Shown here: piece after piece, positions 3,348-14,856 of the stretch
Layout: every line of letters begins with the position of its first letter
Numbering within the stretch: the first letter of the stretch is position 1
Source of the DNA: Paraburkholderia sp. FT54
GTDB taxonomy: Bacteria > Pseudomonadota > Gammaproteobacteria > Burkholderiales > Burkholderiaceae
Assembly: GCF_031585635.1 (NCBI RefSeq)
Contig: NZ_CP134197.1
Span: forward strand, 806,001 to 870,000
Length of the DNA stretch: 64,000 bases
Direction of reading: 5' to 3'
The notes under the pieces: model-generated
Told to the model about the DNA's origin: nothing
The model's input: only the letters and a program-made list of their open reading frames with translations
Databases searched by the model: none
Position numbers and translations under genes: made by a program

Positions 3348-3599
3348 GGCTCACACTCCAGTTCAAGGTTTCCGTCCCGCCTATATGGCGGCCGATCATG
3401 ACCGCGTGGCCGGCGAAATGCCCGCACACCACGTGCTCCAAGTCTAGTTCAAATCCGCGCGATGGGGACCGCGTACCTTAGAACAGACGGAACGCGAGCA
3501 GCCGGTCGGCTCGCCCGCGCTACCACAACTCATCAGCGTGGGGCCCGTTGAGATGGCATTTGGACAGCAAGAGGTGGCGCACGAGGCCAACCGGAATAG

Positions 3600-6500
3600 T
3601 CAAATACGCTCGATAACCGCAACCCGTTGCCCCGCGCCCACCGGCGAGCCGGGCACCACGTGAATCTCGCCGACGATCCCTGCACACGGCGCGCACACGG
3701 AGATTTCCATTTTCATCGACTCGATAATGAGCAGCACGTCGCCCGCCGCGACTGTTTCGCCGGGCGCCACCCGCACCTGCCAAAGGCTGCCGGCGATCTC
3801 ACTGTCCACCGCCACTTCACCGTCCCGCAGCGGCGCCAGTTCCGCGTTCTCCGTGACGGGTGCCTCGAAACTTTCCTCCGCCGTCCCGGCTTCGCGCCAG
3901 CGCTCCCGCTCGGCCTGAAACGCGGCCTGCTGGCGCGCCCGAAACTGCTCGATGCCAGCGGATTCGCGCGTGAGAAACGCCTGATAGTCGGTAAGCGACA
4001 ACTCGGTCCCTTCAATCCTCAACGGGTAGCGCCCCAGGGGAAAGTTCGCCCGGATGCGCAGCAATTCGTCGGCGGGGACTTCGTAGAAGCGGATCTGGTC
4101 GAAGAAGCGCAACAGGTATGGCCGTCCTGAAAAATCCGCCACTTCGCGATAGCGGTTCCACATCTGCAACGTGCGCCCCACGAACTGATAACCGCCGGGC
4201 CCTTCCATCCCATACACGCATAGATAGGCTCCGCCGATCCCGACCGAGTTCTCCGCCGTCCAGGTGCGCGCGGGGTTGTATTTGGTCGTCACCAGCCGGT
4301 GACGCGGATCTAGCGGCGTGGCGACAGGCGCGCCGAGATACACGTCGCCGAGGCCCATCACGAGGTAGCTGGCATCGAAGACGATCTGCTTGACGGCATC
4401 GATCGAATCGAGGTCGTTGATGCGGCGGATGAACTCGAGATTGCTCGGACACCATGGCGCGTCCTTGCGCACCGTCGTCATGTATTTGTCGATGGCGAGA
4501 CGGCACGCGGGGTCGTCCCACGACAGCGGCAAATGAACGATGCGCGACGGCACGCGCAAATCCCGTTGCAGCAGCACATGCTGCCATGCGCGCTCGACAA
4601 TTCCGAGCAGTTGCGAGAGCGGCAGCCTTTCAGGCTGATAGTGAATCTGCAGCGAGCGGATACCGGGCGTCAGATCGATCACGCCAGGCAGCGCCATCGA
4701 TTCGAATGACTGCATCAGCGCATGGCTCCGGAACCGGAGTACCAGATCGAGTTCCGGCGGCCCGATTTCAAGCAGCAGATGCGTGTCGCCGGAAACACGC
4801 GCGACAAGCCGTTCGCGATCGGTGCCGGTATCGAGGACGATAGGCGACGTGAGTGCCACTTCCTTCGAGAGTGCCGGCTCCCCCTCGAATTCGAGCGTTT
4901 GCAATTCACGCAGACGCTGGCGGGCCGCCTTGCGCGCTTCATCGATCCGCACCGGCACGAAGCGCACCTTGTCGCCGGCCTTCAACTGGCCGATTTGCCA
5001 AAGATCCGCCTCGATGATCGTCACCGGACAAACGAAGCCGCCAAGGCTCGGACCATCGGGTCCAAGAATCACGGGCATGTCGCCAGTGAAATCGACTGCA
5101 CCGACCGCGTATGGGTTGTCGTGAATATTCGACGGATGCAGCCCCGCCTCGCCACCATCCTCGCGCGACCATTCCGGCTTCGGTCCAATCAGACGCACGC
5201 CGGTGCGGCTGGAGTTGAAATGGATTTCCCATTCGGTGTCGAAAAACTGCTCGATATAACGCGAGCTAAAGTACTCCGGCGCGCCGTGCGGACCATAGAT
5301 CACGCGCAGTGTGCGCACGGTTTCCAGCGCGGGAACGTTGGCGAGTACCCTACCCGCGTCTTCATCCAGCAGCGGCTGAAGATGCAGTACATCGCCCGCG
5401 CGCAGCGCTCGACCGCCGTGCCCGCCGAACTGGCCGAGCGTGAAGGTGCTGCGGCTGCCGAGATACACCGCGACGTCGAAGCCGCCGCGCACGCACAGGT
5501 ACGCACGCGCGCCGGCGCCGCGAATCGTGCCGAGCGCGAGCGTCGAACCGGCGGCGACCAACAGGGTCGTGTTCAACGGCTGTTCGACATCGTCAAGCAG
5601 CACGGGAAGATTCGCACCCGTCACGGCGACGACGGCGTCCGTGTTGAAGCGCAACGTCGGCCCACTCATCGTCACTTCGAGTGCGGCAGCGTCGGCATCG
5701 TTGCCGAGAAACCGGTTGCCGAGCCGCAGCGCACGGTCGTCCATGGGACCGGATGGAGGAATGCCGACCGCCCAATAACCGAGGCGGCCCGGATGGTCCT
5801 GCACGGTCGTCTGCATGCCGCCGCTGACGACTTCGACCGTGCTCGCCGAATACTTGAGCCCTTCAAGGCAGCGCGTCCACGGCTCACCCGACGCAAACGG
5901 ATGATCGTCGACGATCTGCCGCAGGTAGTCACGGTTCGTCTCCACGCCATAGATTCGTGTGTTCTTCAATGCGTCGGTGAGCAGGTGGCGCGCCGCCTCG
6001 CGCGTTGACGACCACGCAATCACCTTGGCAAGCATCGGATCGAAATAGGGCGGCACTTCGCAGCCCGCCTCGATCCACGTATCGATGCGCAGCGCTCGGC
6101 CGTCGGCGAGCGGAAACGCGACGTCGGTCAGCAAGCCCGGGCTCGGTTTGAAATCGCGGCCCGGGTCTTCGGCGTAGAGCCGTGCCTGAATCGCATGCCC
6201 CAGCGGCTCCAGACCTGCCGCGAGTTCGTGCAAGGGCGCGAGCGTACCCGCCGCCAGTTCGATCATCCAGCGCACCAGATCCACGCCCCAGACCTGCTCG
6301 GTCACGCCATGTTCGACCTGCAGACGCGTATTCACTTCGAGGAAATAAAACTGCTGCGCGGCGCTGTCGTAGACGAATTCCACCGTGCCGGCCGAGCGGT
6401 ACTCGACTGCTTTCGCGAGTTTCACCGCGGCGTCGCACAAGGCGGCCGCCATGCCTTGCGGCAGATTCGGCGCGGGCGTCTCTTCGAGCACCTTCTGGTT

Positions 6501-7199
6501 GCGCCGCTGCACCGAGCAGTCGCGTACGCCGAGGGCAATCGCATCGCCGAGACCGTCGCCGAAAACCTGCACTTCCAGATGCCGCGCCCGCTCGATGTAC
6601 TTTTCGAGGAACACGCCCGCATCGCTGAAGTTGTTCTGGCCGAGGCGCTTCACCACTTCGAAATGCGCGCTCAGTTCCCCGGCATTCCAGCACACCCGCA
6701 TGCCAATACCGCCGCCGCCCGCCGTGCTTTTCAGCATCACCGGGTAGCCGATCGACGCCGCCGCATCGAGGGCTGCGGGCAAATCGTCGAGCAAGCCCGT
6801 GCCTTCGAGCATCGGCACGCCCTCTTCCGCCGCGATTGCGCGAGCCGTGTGCTTCAGGCCAAAAGCTCGCAATTGTGCGGCCGTCGGTCCGATGAAAGCG
6901 ATGCCTGCTGCTTCGCACGCTTCGCCGAACGCCGCATTCTCCGACAGAAAACCGTAACCGGGATGGATTGCCTGCACGTTTTCGCGGCGGGCGATCGTGA
7001 GGATTTTTTCTGTGTCGAGGTAGGTGGCGGAGGCCGGCCCATCGCCGAGACTGTGCGCGATGGGCGCCTCGCTCACATGAAGGCTCGCACGATCCGCTTC
7101 CGCATAGACGGCGACACCTGTTACATCGAGTTCACGCAGCGTTCTGAGGATGCGGCACGCAATGGCGCCGCGATTGGCGATCAGGATTTTCTCGAACAT
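3600..7199 (-). CDS. guanidine carboxylase (urea carboxylase family)
   Basis: 1199-aa biotin-dependent carboxylase. Domains in order: biotin carboxylase with ATP-grasp (1-450, glycine loop around 161-166), carboxyltransferase halves of the KipA/KipI (AHS2/AHS1) type (about 455-750 and 775-1060), and a biotinyl domain with the biotin lysine K1163 in ESMKMEI. The family carboxylates urea or guanidine. The guanidine-I riboswitch, the two DUF1989 genes directly upstream and the transporter argue for guanidine, giving carboxyguanidine. The carboxyltransferase motif reads AVDFTGD with Asp703; I recall that an Asp rather than Asn near here separates guanidine from urea enzymes, but this needs an alignment. 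Last gene of the operon; no allophanate hydrolase is fused or adjacent. Confidence 0.92.
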   Translation of the reverse strand: MFEKILIANRGAIACRILRTLRELDVTGVAVYAEADRASLHVSEAPIAHSLGDGPASATYLDTEKILTIARRENVQAIHPGYGFLSENAAFGEACEAAGIAFIGPTAAQLRAFGLKHTARAIAAEEGVPMLEGTGLLDDLPAALDAAASIGYPVMLKSTAGGGGIGMRVCWNAGELSAHFEVVKRLGQNNFSDAGVFLEKYIERARHLEVQVFGDGLGDAIALGVRDCSVQRRNQKVLEETPAPNLPQGMAAALCDAAVKLAKAVEYRSAGTVEFVYDSAAQQFYFLEVNTRLQVEHGVTEQVWGVDLVRWMIELAAGTLAPLHELAAGLEPLGHAIQARLYAEDPGRDFKPSPGLLTDVAFPLADGRALRIDTWIEAGCEVPPYFDPMLAKVIAWSSTREAARHLLTDALKNTRIYGVETNRDYLRQIVDDHPFASGEPWTRCLEGLKYSASTVEVVSGGMQTTVQDHPGRLGYWAVGIPPSGPMDDRALRLGNRFLGNDADAAALEVTMSGPTLRFNTDAVVAVTGANLPVLLDDVEQPLNTTLLVAAGSTLALGTIRGAGARAYLCVRGGFDVAVYLGSRSTFTLGQFGGHGGRALRAGDVLHLQPLLDEDAGRVLANVPALETVRTLRVIYGPHGAPEYFSSRYIEQFFDTEWEIHFNSSRTGVRLIGPKPEWSREDGGEAGLHPSNIHDNPYAVGAVDFTGDMPVILGPDGPSLGGFVCPVTIIEADLWQIGQLKAGDKVRFVPVRIDEARKAARQRLRELQTLEFEGEPALSKEVALTSPIVLDTGTDRERLVARVSGDTHLLLEIGPPELDLVLRFRSHALMQSFESMALPGVIDLTPGIRSLQIHYQPERLPLSQLLGIVERAWQHVLLQRDLRVPSRIVHLPLSWDDPACRLAIDKYMTTVRKDAPWCPSNLEFIRRINDLDSIDAVKQIVFDASYLVMGLGDVYLGAPVATPLDPRHRLVTTKYNPARTWTAENSVGIGGAYLCVYGMEGPGGYQFVGRTLQMWNRYREVADFSGRPYLLRFFDQIRFYEVPADELLRIRANFPLGRYPLRIEGTELSLTDYQAFLTRESAGIEQFRARQQAAFQAERERWREAGTAEESFEAPVTENAELAPLRDGEVAVDSEIAGSLWQVRVAPGETVAAGDVLLIIESMKMEISVCAPCAGIVGEIHVVPGSPVGAGQRVAVIERI

Positions 7200-7374
7200 G
7201 AGAGGAGACTGGATTCATGGGCAGGCCGTCCCGCCACGTGGGAATTGCATGCCGCGGTCGTCCGCGGCAGAGGTCCGTGTCAGCGATATGCGTGAGTCAG
7301 TTGTTCGCGCGTGCGAGTGCAGCAACGTCCGGACCGAACCAGCATGACGAAATAAAGCCAGTTGCGGATACGCT

Positions 7375-8016
7375 TCAGTTCCATATCAGGAGCTCAGCGG
7401 GCGTCGGGTTATAGGCATTGCATGGATTGTTCAACTGCGGGCAATTGGAGATCAGCACGATCACATCCATTTGCGCGCGCAATTCGACATACTTGCCCGG
7501 CGCCGAGATGCCGTCTTCGAATGTAAGTCCGCCTTCGGACGTCACCGGCACGTTCATGAAGAAGTTGATGTTCGCGCCGATTTCCTGCTTCGACAGACGT
7601 CCGTCGTGCGCACAGGCGCGCAGGTAGTTGTCGCGGCAGCTGTGCATGTAGCGCTTTTCCAGCGCGTAGCGCACCGTGTTGCTCTCCTGCGCGCAAGCGC
7701 CGCCGAGCGTATCGTGGCGGCCGCAGGTGTCGGCGACGATCGTCAGCATCGGATTGCCAAGATTCGAATACAGCACGGTACCGGTCGTCAGATAGAGATT
7801 CTTCTGCCGACGCAGCGTGCGTTGCGGGTCAAAACGTTCACGCGGATCGGCGAGACTGAAGAACAGCGTATCGACCGCCTGATTGCCTTCCAGATCGAGA
7901 ATGCGCAGCGTCTGCCCCGTTTTCAGTTCATGAAGCCAGGGTTCACCGGCCGCGAGTGTCTCGCGAAAGACTGCGTGTTCTGGGCGTTTGTCACTGACTG
8001 TAAGCGTCGTTTTCAT
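7375..8016 (-). CDS. carboxyguanidine deiminase subunit (DUF1989, UAAP1-like)
   Basis: 213-aa DUF1989 protein of the type formerly called urea carboxylase-associated protein 1. Work on guanidine assimilation showed that such proteins form a heteromeric carboxyguanidine deiminase (CgdAB) that turns carboxyguanidine into allophanate and ammonia. Conserved features visible here are [24 protein letters not shown] and the C-terminal [16 protein letters not shown], the cysteines being likely metal ligands. It lies 15 bp after the sister DUF1989 gene and 175 bp before the carboxylase, so all three are probably one transcript. I did not assign cgdA or cgdB because I cannot fix which paralogue bears which name. 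Confidence 0.88.
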
Positions 8017-8031
8017 GATGTCGGGTTCCGC

Positions 8032-8736
8032 TCAGAGAAAGAAACGATCGGTGTTGATAAAACCGCGCACGTTTTCCTCACAGGCGGTTCGGCACAATTC
8101 GGCGACGTCGCGCTCCGCATGGCTCAACGCGAGCTTGACCGGCTTGGGCGCGTATTCCGGATGCGGATCGAGCGGATGCTGGATCGCGGTGAGCACGACG
8201 AGCGTATTCATCGGTGCATACAGGTCGACGTAGTCGCCCGCCTTCGAATTGCCAGGCACGAAATTCAAGGCGCCCGCGTCGGTGACGTCGACACGGCTGA
8301 AGAGATTGAGCGTCATCAGCAGATCGGAGATGCCCAGCCCCCACTTGCCCAATTCGACCAGCAGGTTGTCCGTACCGTTGCGATGGAACGCATTGCGCAG
8401 TTCCTGATAGCGGCCGGTCCCGTACCGTTCATGCACTTCTTCGGCATTCGATACGCCGCCGATGCTGTCGTGCCAGCCGCAGGTATCCGCGACGATTGCT
8501 GCGAGCACGCGGCCCATATCGGAATAAAGGCAGTGACCGGCCGTCAGTTTCGCGGTGTGCTGGCACTTCAGCGTATCGGGAAGATTGAGCCGTTCGCTCT
8601 TCTCGGCTGCATTGATCAACATAACGCTGACGTTCGCGCCGCCGCGCAGGTCGGTAATGCGCAACGATTGGCCGCGTTTGACGATCAACGATGCATGACC
8701 CCCTCCGGGGACGGTTTCTTCAAGTAGCAAATCCAT
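8032..8736 (-). CDS. carboxyguanidine deiminase subunit (DUF1989, UAAP2-like)
   Basis: 234-aa DUF1989 paralogue, longer than the neighbouring subunit, matching urea carboxylase-associated protein 2. It shares the family core (LRGGANVSVML, VADTCGWHDSIGG) but its C-terminal Pro motif reads IQHPLDPHPEYAPKPV, without the two cysteines of the sister subunit. This asymmetry fits an obligate heteromer in which one subunit holds the main metal site. It is 15 bp upstream of the UAAP1-like gene and 23 bp downstream of the ABC ATPase gene. Function assigned from the family and operon; the split of catalytic roles between the subunits is inference. Confidence 0.88.
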   Translation of the reverse strand: MDLLLEETVPGGGHASLIVKRGQSLRITDLRGGANVSVMLINAAEKSERLNLPDTLKCQHTAKLTAGHCLYSDMGRVLAAIVADTCGWHDSIGGVSNAEEVHERYGTGRYQELRNAFHRNGTDNLLVELGKWGLGISDLLMTLNLFSRVDVTDAGALNFVPGNSKAGDYVDLYAPMNTLVVLTAIQHPLDPHPEYAPKPVKLALSHAERDVAELCRTACEENVRGFINTDRFFL

Positions 8737-8759
8737 GTTGTCAAGATTCCCATTTAGGC

Positions 8760-9545
8760 TCAGACCGTTTCGACACGCGATGCGCCTTCCACCACGGCTC
8801 GGGCCAGATGGATGGACGACGCGGAGCCGCGGCTGTGGTCGAGCGGAATGTTGTAGGTAATGCGCGCGCCGTAGGCGCCGGGCGCTTGAGGATCGACACG
8901 AACCTTGTCGAATACCAGCACGCGGCTGCCCAGGGTGAAGCCTTCCTTCAGGTCATGCGTGACCATGAAGATCGTCAGCTTCGATTCGCGCCAGAGGCCC
9001 AGCAGCAAGTCGTGCATGTCCTTGCGAATACCGGGATCGAGTGCACCGAATGGCTCATCGAGCAACAACACGCGCGGCTTCGCCATCAGCGCCTGGGCAA
9101 TCGCGAGACGCTGTTGCATGCCGCCCGACAGTTGCTGCGGATACTTATCCAGCGCCGCGCCGAGGCCCACGCGTTCCAGCATCGCCGCGGCTTCGTCGCG
9201 CGCCGCACGCCGCCGTGCACCGAACAGCCGGCCCGTGAACTTCGCGCGCGGCAATTCGAGTCCCAGCATCACATTGCGGACCACACTTAGATGGTCGAAC
9301 ACCGAATAGCGCTGAAATACCACGCCGCGATGCTCATCGGGTTCAGCCGGCAACGGTTCGCCTTCGAGCAGAATCTCGCCGCGCGTCGCGCGCTCCTGGC
9401 CGAGCAACAGCCGCAGGAATGTGGACTTGCCGCAGCCCGAAGCGCCGACCATCGAACAGAACTCGCCTTCTTCGATGCGCAGGTTCAATCGTTCGAGCAC
9501 GACCTGTTCGCCGTATTCCTTCCAGACGTTACGAACTTCGATCAT
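8760..9545 (-). CDS. guanidine-operon ABC transporter, ATP-binding protein
   Basis: 261-aa ATPase of the nitrate/sulfonate/taurine (SsuB/TauB-like) class. Walker A GASGCGKST, signature LSGGMQQRL and Walker B VLLLDEPFGALDP are intact. The start at 9545 (MIEVRNVWKEYG) overlaps the permease stop in an ATGA junction, which implies translational coupling; the frame extends further upstream but only inside the permease gene. With the permease and binding protein it would import the riboswitch ligand, guanidine, across the inner membrane. Such genes are often labelled as urea or nitrate transporters, which the riboswitch contradicts here. Confidence 0.9.
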   Translation of the reverse strand: MIEVRNVWKEYGEQVVLERLNLRIEEGEFCSMVGASGCGKSTFLRLLLGQERATRGEILLEGEPLPAEPDEHRGVVFQRYSVFDHLSVVRNVMLGLELPRAKFTGRLFGARRRAARDEAAAMLERVGLGAALDKYPQQLSGGMQQRLAIAQALMAKPRVLLLDEPFGALDPGIRKDMHDLLLGLWRESKLTIFMVTHDLKEGFTLGSRVLVFDKVRVDPQAPGAYGARITYNIPLDHSRGSASSIHLARAVVEGASRVETV

Positions 9546-10369
9546 CGGGCGCCTCCGCCGTACCAGGGGAACGACCATTGCGTCAGGCGGCGCAGCAGCT
9601 CGTCGGTGAGCCACGCGAGCAGCGTGATCCACGCGACGTAAGGCAGGATCACGTCCATCGCCAGGTAGCGACGCATCAGAAAGATGCGGTAGCCGAGACC
9701 GTCCGTCGAAGCGATCGCTTCCGCGGCGATCAGAAACAGCCATGCCGCGCCGAGCGAGAGACGCATGGCCACCAGCAAGCGCGGCAGCAATTGCGGCAGC
9801 ACGAGACGCAGAATCAAGGTCCAACTGGTTGCACCGAGCGTCTGCGCCTTGACCCACAGCTCGATCGGGATCTCGTGAGCCCGCGCGTGCAGATCGCGAA
9901 TAATCATCGGCGTAATGCCGACCACGATCAGCACCACCTTCGACAACTCGTCGAGCCCGAACACGATGAACAGGATGGGCAGCACCGCGAGCGGCGGGAT
10001 CATCGAAATCACCGTGATGAATGGTGAAAACGTTGCGCTCACCAGCGGAAACGAGCCAGTCGCGATGGCCGCGACCAGCGCAATCACGGCACTCACGACG
10101 AGGCCGGTGCCGAGCCGTCGCAAGCTCGATATCGTGTCGGTCCACAGCAGATACTCGCCGGTGCGCTTGTCCTCGTTGAAAGCGACTTCCTTGATGGCCT
10201 CACTCATTTGCGTCGCGCTCGGCAGCAGCTTGTCATCGGGATTGAGCTTAAGCCGCATCGACGACCCGGTGAAATAGACCGCCATCAGTACGATGAACGG
10301 CAGCAACAGCAGCATCAGACCGCCGCTTCGGCTGGGATGTCGATTGATGAGTCGCATGTGCCTGCCCAT
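9542..10369 (-). CDS. guanidine-operon ABC transporter, permease
   Basis: 275-aa inner-membrane permease with about six hydrophobic segments and the cytoplasmic EAA-type loop (ELWVKAQTLGATSWTLILR) that docks on the ATPase. It resembles SsuC/TauC permeases. The first ATG is at 10369; a second at 10357 (MRLINRHPSR) has a GGCAGG just upstream and could be the real start. It begins about 20 bp after the stop of the binding-protein gene and overlaps the ATPase gene by 4 bp. Substrate assignment rests on the riboswitch and the downstream enzymes. Confidence 0.88.
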   Translation of the reverse strand: MGRHMRLINRHPSRSGGLMLLLLPFIVLMAVYFTGSSMRLKLNPDDKLLPSATQMSEAIKEVAFNEDKRTGEYLLWTDTISSLRRLGTGLVVSAVIALVAAIATGSFPLVSATFSPFITVISMIPPLAVLPILFIVFGLDELSKVVLIVVGITPMIIRDLHARAHEIPIELWVKAQTLGATSWTLILRLVLPQLLPRLLVAMRLSLGAAWLFLIAAEAIASTDGLGYRIFLMRRYLAMDVILPYVAWITLLAWLTDELLRRLTQWSFPWYGGGAR

Positions 10370-10389
10370 TGAAATGCGTGTTGTCTGGC

Positions 10390-11460
10390 TCAGAGCTTGC
10401 CGGCGGCTGCCATTTCGACGTAAGTCGGATCGAAGCGCAGCTTGACGTTGTTCCTGTCGCCGATCACGACGCCCTTGTCGAACACCATGCCAACTACATC
10501 CGCGCTCCTGGCACCCTGCCCGAGCAGACCATGATCGAACGAGAACTTCGCGACGCGCGTCATGATCTTCGGCATGTCGGGGCTGGTGACGAAATCGAGC
10601 GCAGCCTTCGGTGTGTAAAACAGCGCGGTGGTCGACAGTTGACCCTTGAAGCCCGCGAGATCGGTGCCCGACGCCTTCGCCATCGCGGTGAGCGCGCTGG
10701 TACTGGCGGCGTTATTGGCTCGCATCAATGCGACCATCTCGAACCATGCGCCCGTCAGCGCCTTACCGAGCGCCGGGTTGTCTTTCAACGTCTTCGTGTT
10801 GACGATCATCATGTCCATGATTTCGCCTGGGATCTTGCTGGAGTCGAAGACTTCGGTGACGTTCGTCTGTGCCTTGAGGTCGGCGAGCATCGGGTTCCAC
10901 GTCACCGCATTGTGGACGGCGGGCGTCGCGAACGCGCCGGAGATATCGGCGTCGGAGGTGTTCACCACTTTGAGGTCGCGCTCGCTCATATGCGCGCTCT
11001 CGAGCGCGCGTGCGAGCAGATAGTGCGATACCGAGAACTGGACCAGATTGATCTGCTGGCCCTTCAGGTCGGCAATCTGTTTGCCCTTGCCCTTGATGAG
11101 CACGCCATCGTTGCCGTTCGAATAGTCGCTGACGATCAGCGCCGTCGAATCCACGCCCCCCGAGGCCGGGATGGTCAGCGCGTCCATGTTGGTCATCGCG
11201 CAACCGTCGAACTTACCAGCGGTGTATTGATTGATGGATTCGACGTAGTCGTTCAGTTGCACGACATCGACGTTGATGCCGTATTTCTTGGCCCATTTGG
11301 AAACGATGCCCTGGGTTTTCGCTTGGCCCCACGGCATCCAGCCAGCGTAGATGGTCCAGCACACCTTGAAGTCGGTGCGTCCGGCGGCGAACGAGGTGGT
11401 TGAGGCGAAGGCGGCGAGAGAGACGGCGGCGATGCCGAGAAAGCGAGCGAGCTTGCGCAT
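10390..11460 (-). CDS. guanidine-operon ABC transporter, periplasmic binding protein
   Basis: 356-aa solute-binding protein of the SsuA/TauA/NMT1 class, first gene of the guanidine operon. A typical signal peptide (MRKLARFLGIAAVSLAAFA...) ends near residue 26, giving a mature start around AAGRTDFKV. Aromatic residues near the N-terminus (CWTIYAGWMPWGQAK) could line the ligand site. The ATG at 11460 follows GAGG; the frame is open upstream into the riboswitch but that part is not coding. The riboswitch ends about 58 bp before the start codon. The ligand is likely guanidine rather than the urea often named in such annotations. Confidence 0.9.
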   Translation of the reverse strand: MRKLARFLGIAAVSLAAFASTTSFAAGRTDFKVCWTIYAGWMPWGQAKTQGIVSKWAKKYGINVDVVQLNDYVESINQYTAGKFDGCAMTNMDALTIPASGGVDSTALIVSDYSNGNDGVLIKGKGKQIADLKGQQINLVQFSVSHYLLARALESAHMSERDLKVVNTSDADISGAFATPAVHNAVTWNPMLADLKAQTNVTEVFDSSKIPGEIMDMMIVNTKTLKDNPALGKALTGAWFEMVALMRANNAASTSALTAMAKASGTDLAGFKGQLSTTALFYTPKAALDFVTSPDMPKIMTRVAKFSFDHGLLGQGARSADVVGMVFDKGVVIGDRNNVKLRFDPTYVEMAAAGKL

Positions 11461-11517
11461 GAGGTTGACCTCGAAAGGGACGGTTAGCGACGGCAGGGAG
11501 CAGCGCAAACATCGCGT

Positions 11518-11610
11518 TCTCTCCCGGGCTTTTATCCCGCCGTGTAACCTCGCCTGAGGTCGACAGCTCTCGGACCAGCGCCTGCGTGAAGCAGGCCGGA
11601 ACCCTAGCCG
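11518..11610 (-). ncRNA. guanidine-I (ykkC) riboswitch
   Basis: The leader on the minus strand carries the hallmark conserved blocks of the guanidine-I aptamer in the right order: CTAGGGTTCCG (11597-11607), CTGGTCCGAGAGCTG in the middle, ACACGGCGGGATAAAAG and CCCGGGAGA (to about 11520). These match the class known as ykkC-yxkD, which binds guanidinium and turns on efflux or degradation genes. It lies directly before the transporter gene. The expression platform was not resolved; about 58 nt separate the aptamer from the ATG, so control of ribosome access or of early termination is possible. Confidence 0.95.
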
Positions 11611-11669
11611 TCCATTTCCAGATTGTGTGCTAAACCGGATGCTGCGCCGGCTCCTTGCACTTCTTCTTA

Positions 11670-13482: not shown

Positions 13483-14856
13483 TCAGCTACGCGAAGGAAA
13501 AATACCTTGCGTGCAGATCATGTAGGTCAGGCCATTCGGCGTGACTGACGCCAGGTTGGGCAATGCAAAGGTTGTTACACCGTCTCCACCGAAGGCGGTT
13601 CCCAACAAGCTGAAGAGTGCTGTGTTCTGCGAGATGCTCATCAACTGCCCGTTGGCGGGCACCCCCACGCCGACGCCGGCCGCCGTCAGCCAGACGGTAC
13701 CCAGTGTGCAGGTCTCGCCCGTGCCCGGGGCAGCGTTGCCCGGATTACCCAATCCCGAAACCGAACCCGTTGCGCCCGTGGCGCCTTGAGCGCCCTGAGC
13801 GCCCTGAGCGCCCTGTGCTCCCGTGGCACCGGTAGCGCCCGTGGCTCCGGTCGGGCCGGTCGCGCCGGTTGGACCTGTTGTCCCCGTTGCTCCCGTTACG
13901 CCCTGGACGCCCTGCGCGCCAGTCGCGCCCGTCGGCCCCGTGGCGCCCACCGCACCAGTCGCACCGGCCGGCCCCGTGGCGCCCACCGCACCGGTGGCAC
14001 CGGCCGGCCCCGCGGCGCCCGTCGCGCCGTTGGAACCCGCCGCACCAGTGGCGCCCGTTGCACCAGTTGCGCCAGTCGCTCCGGCCGCACCCGTCGCGCC
14101 ATCTACTCCCGACGCGCCGTTCGCGCCCGCTGTGCCGGTCGCGCCTGTCGCACCCGTCGCTCCTGCGGCTCCTGTCGCCCCCGTTGCTCCCGTTGCCCCC
14201 GTCGCGCCGGTGGCTCCAGCCGGCCCAACATTGCCGCTCACGAGTTGCTGGGTAATCGTCGTCAGCGTGCTGTTGGTGGCAGCGAGTCTTGCGCTCAGCA
14301 ATTCCAGTCCGTCGTCGTATGCGTTGCCGGAAACAGGCTGAAACTGTTGGTTCATCAGATTGATTGCATCGACATTCACACCGAGGTTAGTCAGCAATTG
14401 CCCGGTTTGCGCAACCGCGGCCGCAAGCCGATTGCTGACCGCACTCGCCGACGCCGCGGAGAAGCCATTGAAGAACGCTTCCGTGTCGGAATTCGCCGCT
14501 GCGCTTGCCGTGACGAGTTCGGTGAACGGCGTCACGTTGATCGTTCCAGGCGAGGCAGCATAGGAATGCAGGACCAATCCCGACGAAGCCGATACGCGAA
14601 CCACACACGGCAACGTTAATCCCGCAGTTGAAACCGACCACGAACCGTCGGCTGCGGTCTGGGTTGAAGCGTGTCCGGCAACGCAATTCAACGACACCTG
14701 ACCGTTGACAATGGGCGCGCCGGTCGCCGCGGTACCTTTTATCGACGCCGGCACAATGCCTTGACTGGTTGCCGCGGAATCTGAACCGCCGCAGCCACTG
14801 AACAATGTCGACACCGCGATCGAAAGCAAAATTGCCGTACTTTTTTTCCCCTGCAT
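13483..14856 (-). CDS. collagen-like repeat lipoprotein with tail-collar-like C-terminus
   Basis: 457-aa predicted lipoprotein: the signal peptide ends in the lipobox FSGC with the lipidated Cys22. Residues 35-110 look like a carboxypeptidase-regulatory/Ig-like fold, 110-205 are Ala-rich helix, 211-364 are about 51 uninterrupted Gly-X-Y triplets, mostly GAT, GPT and GAQ, and 375-457 ([22 protein letters not shown], split by few residues, then ALPNLASV) resemble the phage tail-collar/Mdp domain. It probably forms a trimeric collagen-like stalk on the cell surface with a collar tip, like the Burkholderia collagen-like (Bucl) proteins. Start supported by AAAGGA. Confidence 0.88.
13765..14226 (-). 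repeat. collagen-type Gly-X-Y coding repeat
   Basis: About 460 bp of 9-bp-scale tandem variation encoding Gly-X-Y triplets inside the collagen-like lipoprotein. It gives long false open frames on both strands and is a likely place for copy-number change by slippage. Confidence 0.9.

Follow-up and report, generated by a model that had tools for sequence, protein, structure and literature searches.

Paraburkholderia sp. FT54, whose 8.6 Mb genome is assembled in 5 contigs, very probably harbours an operon for the import and assimilation of guanidine that is controlled by two riboswitches and draws on an unlinked allophanate hydrolase, AtzF, for the last step of the pathway. The operon lies on the minus strand of a 64,000 nt stretch of DNA, hereafter the window (contig NZ_CP134197.1, positions 806,001-870,000 of the forward strand), to which coordinates refer unless another contig is named. 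In the direction of transcription, it comprises a guanidine-I aptamer, the substrate-binding protein (SBP), permease and ATPase genes of an ATP-binding cassette (ABC) importer, genes for the two DUF1989 proteins UAAP1 and UAAP2, a guanidine-II aptamer and a carboxylase gene. An initial annotation of the window had described such an order, with an ABC transporter, two DUF1989 genes and a carboxylase behind a riboswitch, and this is how the genes are arranged.

In the proposed pathway, binding of guanidine to the guanidine-I aptamer would switch on the transcript encoding the ABC importer and the carboxyguanidine deiminase CgdAB, and binding to the internal guanidine-II aptamer would raise expression of the carboxylase. 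Guanidine would be carboxylated using ATP and biotin, CgdAB would convert the resulting carboxyguanidine to allophanate and ammonia, and allophanate would pass to the unlinked AtzF, whose gene sits on another contig in a cluster of biuret/triuret type. The operonic atzF would have been lost here, as it appears to have been on several occasions within the genus, a second atzF having made the operonic copy dispensable. The activities of the enzymes and the direction of both switches are what we infer for this scheme.

The guanidine-I aptamer (11519-11618, minus strand) matches the whole of the RF00442 model (positions 1-107 of 107) with 93.7 bits against a gathering threshold of 63 (E = 1.1e-15), and is the single match found by covariance search across the genome. 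It thereby bears out the riboswitch that the initial annotation had placed directly ahead of the operon, apart from beginning at 11618, slightly past the end given there (11610). The final GGGAG of the aptamer can pair with a CTCCC 20 nt further on, forming a hairpin (11496-11525, minus strand; folding energy -13.0 kcal/mol) that lacks a U-run and may be the expression platform; a similar hairpin is found in most of the sequences printed for 30 relatives, among which L049 represents the wrong place and L066 is without the hairpin. No terminator-like site with a T-run was found on the minus strand of the window between the guanidine-I aptamer and the SBP start. A short frame from 11512 was considered as a conserved leader peptide and rejected, its ATG being missing in L182, L183, L194 and L202, with the surrounding hairpin kept in L182, L194 and L202.

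The initial annotation had put the operon under guanidine-I, which represents half of its control, because a guanidine-II aptamer stands before the carboxylase gene. This intra-operon element (RF01068; 7221-7269, minus strand), located between cgdB and the carboxylase gene, scores 42 bits against a gathering threshold of 32 and consists of two hairpins with ACGR loops (ACGA and ACGG). A further covariance model, for which 28 matches from an order-level search were used and the window's carboxylase leader was excluded, also detected it in the window, with 40.0 bits. Its conservation was followed in two sets, which overlap and are therefore not independent: named related loci, being the best 80 of 548 loci from a scan of genome contigs, and 144 genus genomes, which yielded 53 listed places in 52 genomes with a carboxylase of the window group (at least 2191.6 bits against the window protein), the window included. 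Guanidine-II precedes the carboxylase at 28/28 named loci taken as Burkholderiaceae (L041-L065, L074, L075 and L108; weakest 25.6 bits, at L061) and at 53/53 of the close-relative places, comprising the window and 52/52 others (weakest 25.7 bits, at L152). Covariance search found none before the more distant carboxylases (0/7), only seven places with carboxylases of around 60% identity and less having been taken in.

Pair counts in the alignment, which favour the structure because the alignment was fitted to it, showed 96.9% of pair cells to be standard among 35 distinct rows, with three P1 pairs changed on both sides and P2 invariant. These figures exclude a stray match (L187:6163, 18.4 bits) that accounted for three of the six doubly changed pairs in the automatic count, which gave 97.0% paired, with 37-53% in slid controls from the same set. 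A motif scan missed guanidine-II leaders with long P1 stems, and the covariance search was used in its place. Once L077, L079, L089 and L102, whose start is not clear, had been set aside from 81 loci, the remaining 77 were scored for a guanidine-I motif up to 8 kb upstream and for guanidine-II ahead of the carboxylase: 48 had both riboswitches, 8 guanidine-II only, 17 guanidine-I only and 4 neither, guanidine-I possibly having been missed at some loci because some flanks are short. Judged by covariance and conservation, the second riboswitch is real.

Other instances of guanidine-II were encountered in these searches. One further match in the FT54 genome (C1:2904468-2904509) lies ahead of an SMR (Gdx-like) exporter gene; with guanidine-II ahead of both this gene and the carboxylase, guanidine import and export would share an RNA class. 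In operons of Bradyrhizobium and other alphaproteobacteria (L115, L116, L117, L119 and L120; around 8438-8495), guanidine-II does not directly precede the carboxylase but is located approximately 1.5 kb upstream of it, close to where the deiminase genes begin. In two hybrid operons (L185 and L196), cgdA is closely preceded by a guanidine-I motif and a window-group carboxylase by guanidine-II, and a different permease gene follows atzF. L085, from a metagenome-assembled genome named Pedobacter but possibly misnamed, has three guanidine-II matches, one near cgdA, one before the carboxylase and one on the opposite strand.

The carboxylase gene (3600-7199, minus strand), annotated as urea carboxylase, encodes 1199 residues with BC, CT and BCCP domains recognised by Pfam, and matches TIGR02712 with 1815.6 bits (cut-off 1303.85). 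The initial annotation had singled out Asp703, and the alignment confirms it exactly: residue 703 is aspartate and lies opposite Asn1330 of the Kluyveromyces lactis urea amidolyase 5i8i. At this discriminating site guanidine carboxylases have Asp and urea carboxylases Asn (PMC12186494). Aspartate is found here in the window and in 80/80 named related loci, the best 80 of 548; the nearest named carboxylases, taking the six best among the matches listed (87-92% identity), belong to Paraburkholderia, Trinickia and Caballeronia. The two genes upstream of guanidine-II correspond to the deiminase subunits: UAAP1 to cgdA (8032-8736, minus strand; PF09347; TIGR03425, 328.9 bits, cut-off 205.95) and UAAP2 to cgdB (7375-8016, minus strand; TIGR03424, 333.1 bits, cut-off 284.7). 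Both exceed their NCBIfam cut-offs in the profile search, giving the UAAP1/UAAP2 pair expected of CgdAB. The proposal of the initial annotation that the ligand is guanidine and not urea is well supported for the carboxylase, because two guanidine riboswitch classes on one operon coincide with the Asp703 signature, and guanidine assimilation is likely to be the function of the operon.

The operon had also been called complete, which it is not, because no atzF was detected in the 64 kb window (best match of a relative's atzF, E = 1.8) and the genome's only AtzF over the family cut-off (782.3 bits) lies on another contig, C2. Similarity to seven relatives stops at approximately the carboxylase stop codon, and the junction beyond it (3348-3599), which is the position of atzF in most relatives, contains no atzF remnant. 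The AtzF gene on C2 (1523887-1525581) is part of a cluster (L244) with a BMP-type SBP, two permease-like frames, BiuH (NF050097, 411.7 bits, cut-off 370), an ATPase and a hydrolase that most resembles 6xix/6xj4, the structures of the triuret hydrolase TrtA (PMC7948467). This gene content suggests a cluster of the biuret/triuret type, and a BMP-type binding protein adjoins 9/9 of the non-adjacent AtzFs found in the family search of 20 genomes. The unlinked AtzF would serve the guanidine pathway and would presumably be expressed during guanidine use, and the use of guanidine, biuret and triuret may converge on this one enzyme; a title-level literature search for AtzF shared by guanidine and biuret pathways found none.

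Across the genus set, FT54 included, family searches (20 + 32 genomes) found AtzF in 52/52 genomes and a non-adjacent AtzF in 17 of these, either on another contig or, in G374 and G273, 30 kb and 75 kb away. One long uninterrupted atzF match follows the carboxylase at 44/53 places, and the two-piece tblastn match at L198 (G272), where the profile match is full length, was counted as kept. Operonic atzF is absent from four places (the window, G000, and G374, G285 and G305), among which the sequence downstream of the carboxylase differs; it is in two frames at G254 and G380-C1, interruptions that could be assembly errors where the genomes are drafts, and truncated at G306 and G252. A second operon in G380 retains an intact atzF, and G378, with a split carboxylase match, was left out. 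A non-adjacent atzF is present at 8/8 places where the operonic copy is absent, interrupted or truncated, compared with 10/45 others (Fisher's exact test, P = 4.9e-5); scoring truncated copies as kept gives 6/6 versus 12/47 (P = 8.1e-4), and counting only absences gives 4/4 versus 14/49 (P = 0.010). At least seven changes fall on the gene tree of the carboxylase, and independent pairs average 5.6 to 0. Given such repeated loss where a second atzF exists, the operon alone cannot show whether the pathway is complete.

Two other accounts of the operon's function have to be set against guanidine assimilation. Taken as annotated, the operon would take up urea, or another ureido compound, by its ABC system and degrade it by means of a urea carboxylase, in keeping with the NCBIfam names 'urea carboxylase' for the carboxylase and 'putative urea ABC transporter substrate-binding protein' for the SBP. 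This is very improbable for an operon that is controlled by two guanidine riboswitch classes, has Asp in place of Asn at the discriminating position of its carboxylase and encodes a carboxyguanidine deiminase, which urea carboxylation does not need. Such names are known misannotations, the masking of guanidine metabolism by urea annotation being already in print (PMC12186494, section 4). Alternatively, the disappearance of atzF from the window, with no remnant left, could mark an operon in decay, which would no longer permit assimilation of guanidine but at best its removal, giving one ammonia and allophanate. Decay is unlikely, however, as the remaining frames are uninterrupted, both riboswitches exceed their thresholds, the genome retains one AtzF over the family cut-off, and all eight places with an absent, interrupted or truncated operonic atzF are in genomes that have another.

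The leader of the carboxylase gene lacks a feature on which guanidine-II control has been thought to depend. Between P2 and the ATG (7200-7220, minus strand) it is pyrimidine-rich, with an in-frame TGA upstream of the ATG and no Shine-Dalgarno (SD) sequence, and among the close relatives an SD tetramer at -18 to -4 was found in 0/53 carboxylase leaders, compared with 50/50 for SBP, 41/45 for cgdA and 33/37 for cgdB, once genes whose aligned start shows no clear ATG had been dropped (3, 8 and 16 of 53, respectively). Median energies of the predicted duplex with the anti-SD are correspondingly +0.4 kcal/mol for the carboxylase (1/53 at or below -4) and -6.6, -5.3 and -5.8 kcal/mol for SBP, cgdA and cgdB. 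Among the named loci, an SD tetramer precedes 0/29 guanidine-II carboxylases from Burkholderiaceae (window included), 9/27 other guanidine-II carboxylases and 16/21 carboxylases without guanidine-II; the difference between the last two groups (Fisher's exact test, P = 0.004) is uncorrected for kinship. By this count, an SD is present before some guanidine-II carboxylases outside the Burkholderiaceae. In the order set of guanidine-II leaders (30 of 43 matches, with the start of L003, and possibly that of L028, wrongly assigned), SMR and other genes have a median of -6.9 kcal/mol (n = 21) and carboxylases a weaker -3.8 kcal/mol (n = 9). Folding of six carboxylase leaders found no consistent alternative helix masking the start codon, and the energy needed to open the region around the ATG is slightly lower for the carboxylase (median 7.4 kcal/mol) than for the other genes (8.6-11.3 kcal/mol), with overlapping ranges.

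With no SD in these leaders, initiation would be SD-independent or the SD an unusual one. The latter would be the ordinary guanidine-II mechanism, with the purine-rich 5' arm of P2 acting as an SD-like sequence for the carboxylase; the stretch from -45 to -20 indeed pairs with the anti-SD (median -6.5 kcal/mol across 53 leaders), because it contains this arm. The arm nevertheless sits within a GC-rich hairpin, over 20 nt ahead of the ATG, and an alternative in-frame start within the last 60 nt is missing from 46/53 leaders and possible in 7, so that we regard this mechanism as rather doubtful. Less plausible still is that carboxylase translation is coupled to that of cgdB and needs no SD of its own: SD-less genes within operons are often coupled, but here 175 nt and two stable hairpins separate the stop codon of cgdB (7375) from the ATG of the carboxylase (7199). 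A genuinely different expression platform can be put forward, tentatively, as the use made of guanidine-II here. Paraburkholderia-type guanidine-II might be a platform without an SD, in which the two docked hairpins, lying just ahead of the 30S footprint, control initiation without an SD at a start that is rich in pyrimidines, accompanied by a last enzyme repeatedly handed to the AtzF of biuret degradation, with allophanate as the shared hub; this combined suggestion is again a tentative one, to which we give less than even weight. In the usual picture the ligand frees a hidden SD, and a species group without an SD in the regulated gene makes that picture directly testable.

Several of these observations weigh against a guanidine operon with two working switches and an outsourced last step. 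The published guanidine-II mechanism is SD unmasking (PMC12508155, section 6; PMC9094411), and the SD it requires is missing before the carboxylase, which lowers the claim of mechanism and not that of the aptamer. The truncated atzF copies of G306 and G252 exceed the family cut-off (578.0 and 579.4 bits, against 511.05) and may be active, and the sign test on independent pairs is borderline (median P = 0.031, range 0.031-0.125). Finally, no RNA family exceeded its threshold in the 4.7 kb locus of the unlinked AtzF, so that induction of this gene by guanidine is conjectural.

The importer was described in the initial annotation as less well characterised than the enzymes, a fair judgement, since both sequence and fold comparisons place its SBP nearest to solved structures of the sulfonate/taurine-binding type, which are distant. 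The SBP (10390-11460, minus strand) belongs to TIGR03427, the family of such operons (547 bits, cut-off 333.9), and its AlphaFold2 model (pLDDT 89.8) has an NMT1/SsuA/TauA-like fold, with SsuA and TauA closest. Fold searches listed mainly sulfonate, taurine, nitrate/bicarbonate and thiamin-related proteins, and none with guanidine; the modelled fold does not decide the ligand, which is presumably guanidine. The permease (9542-10369, minus strand) is TauC/SsuC-like but falls under the cut-offs of those families in the profile search, which also identified the ABC ATP-binding protein (8760-9545, minus strand; start taken from the frame).

Beyond the junction, in place of the relatives' atzF, is a gene for a beta-keto acid cleavage enzyme (BKACE; PF05853; 2517-3347, minus strand). 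It was considered as a substitute last step and rejected, given this family assignment and because it was not found adjoining the operon in the relatives mapped; it is probably outside the pathway. Also encoded on the minus strand of the window are a 203-residue SET-domain protein (PF00856; 1024-1635), the histone-methyltransferase-type domain here occurring in a bacterium, and a protein of 457 residues that combines collagen-like repeats with a phage tail collar domain (13483-14856).

A literature search for guanidine riboswitches with a carboxylase in Paraburkholderia or Burkholderia found nothing relevant, but was not exhaustive, and absence from print is not claimed. The dual guanidine-I/guanidine-II layout itself is already published for enterobacteria (PMC12186494) and Vreelandella boliviensis (PMC12508155). 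In the latter, both RNAs of the same operon type bind guanidine, which induces the operon; as in FT54, guanidine-I stands in front, guanidine-II lies between cgdB and gca, and the genes include those of an ABC importer, cgdA, cgdB and gca. V. boliviensis differs in having mgdH, mgdL and atzF after gca (PMC12508155), where FT54 has none of them, and in the SD assumed before gca, which FT54 lacks. Similarly, Raoultella, Erwinia and Klebsiella associate guanidine-I with importer and deiminase genes and guanidine-II with the carboxylase (PMC12186494, section 6), but their allophanate hydrolase is under guanidine-II with the carboxylase, whereas in FT54 it is unlinked. The guanidine-II element of Escherichia coli sugE (PMC9094411) shares the two ACGR-loop hairpins and linker, and FT54 too has guanidine-II before an SMR (Gdx-like) gene; by contrast with the FT54 carboxylase leader, which has no SD, guanidine-II leaders in the order that belong to SMR and other genes do contain SDs, as their median duplex energy indicates. 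The unlinked FT54 atzF, next to genes for BiuH and for a protein that among solved structures is nearest to TrtA (6xix), resembles the TrtA/BiuH/AtzF route of triuret and biuret degradation, in whose account (PMC7948467) no link to guanidine was found; in FT54, AtzF would serve guanidine too.

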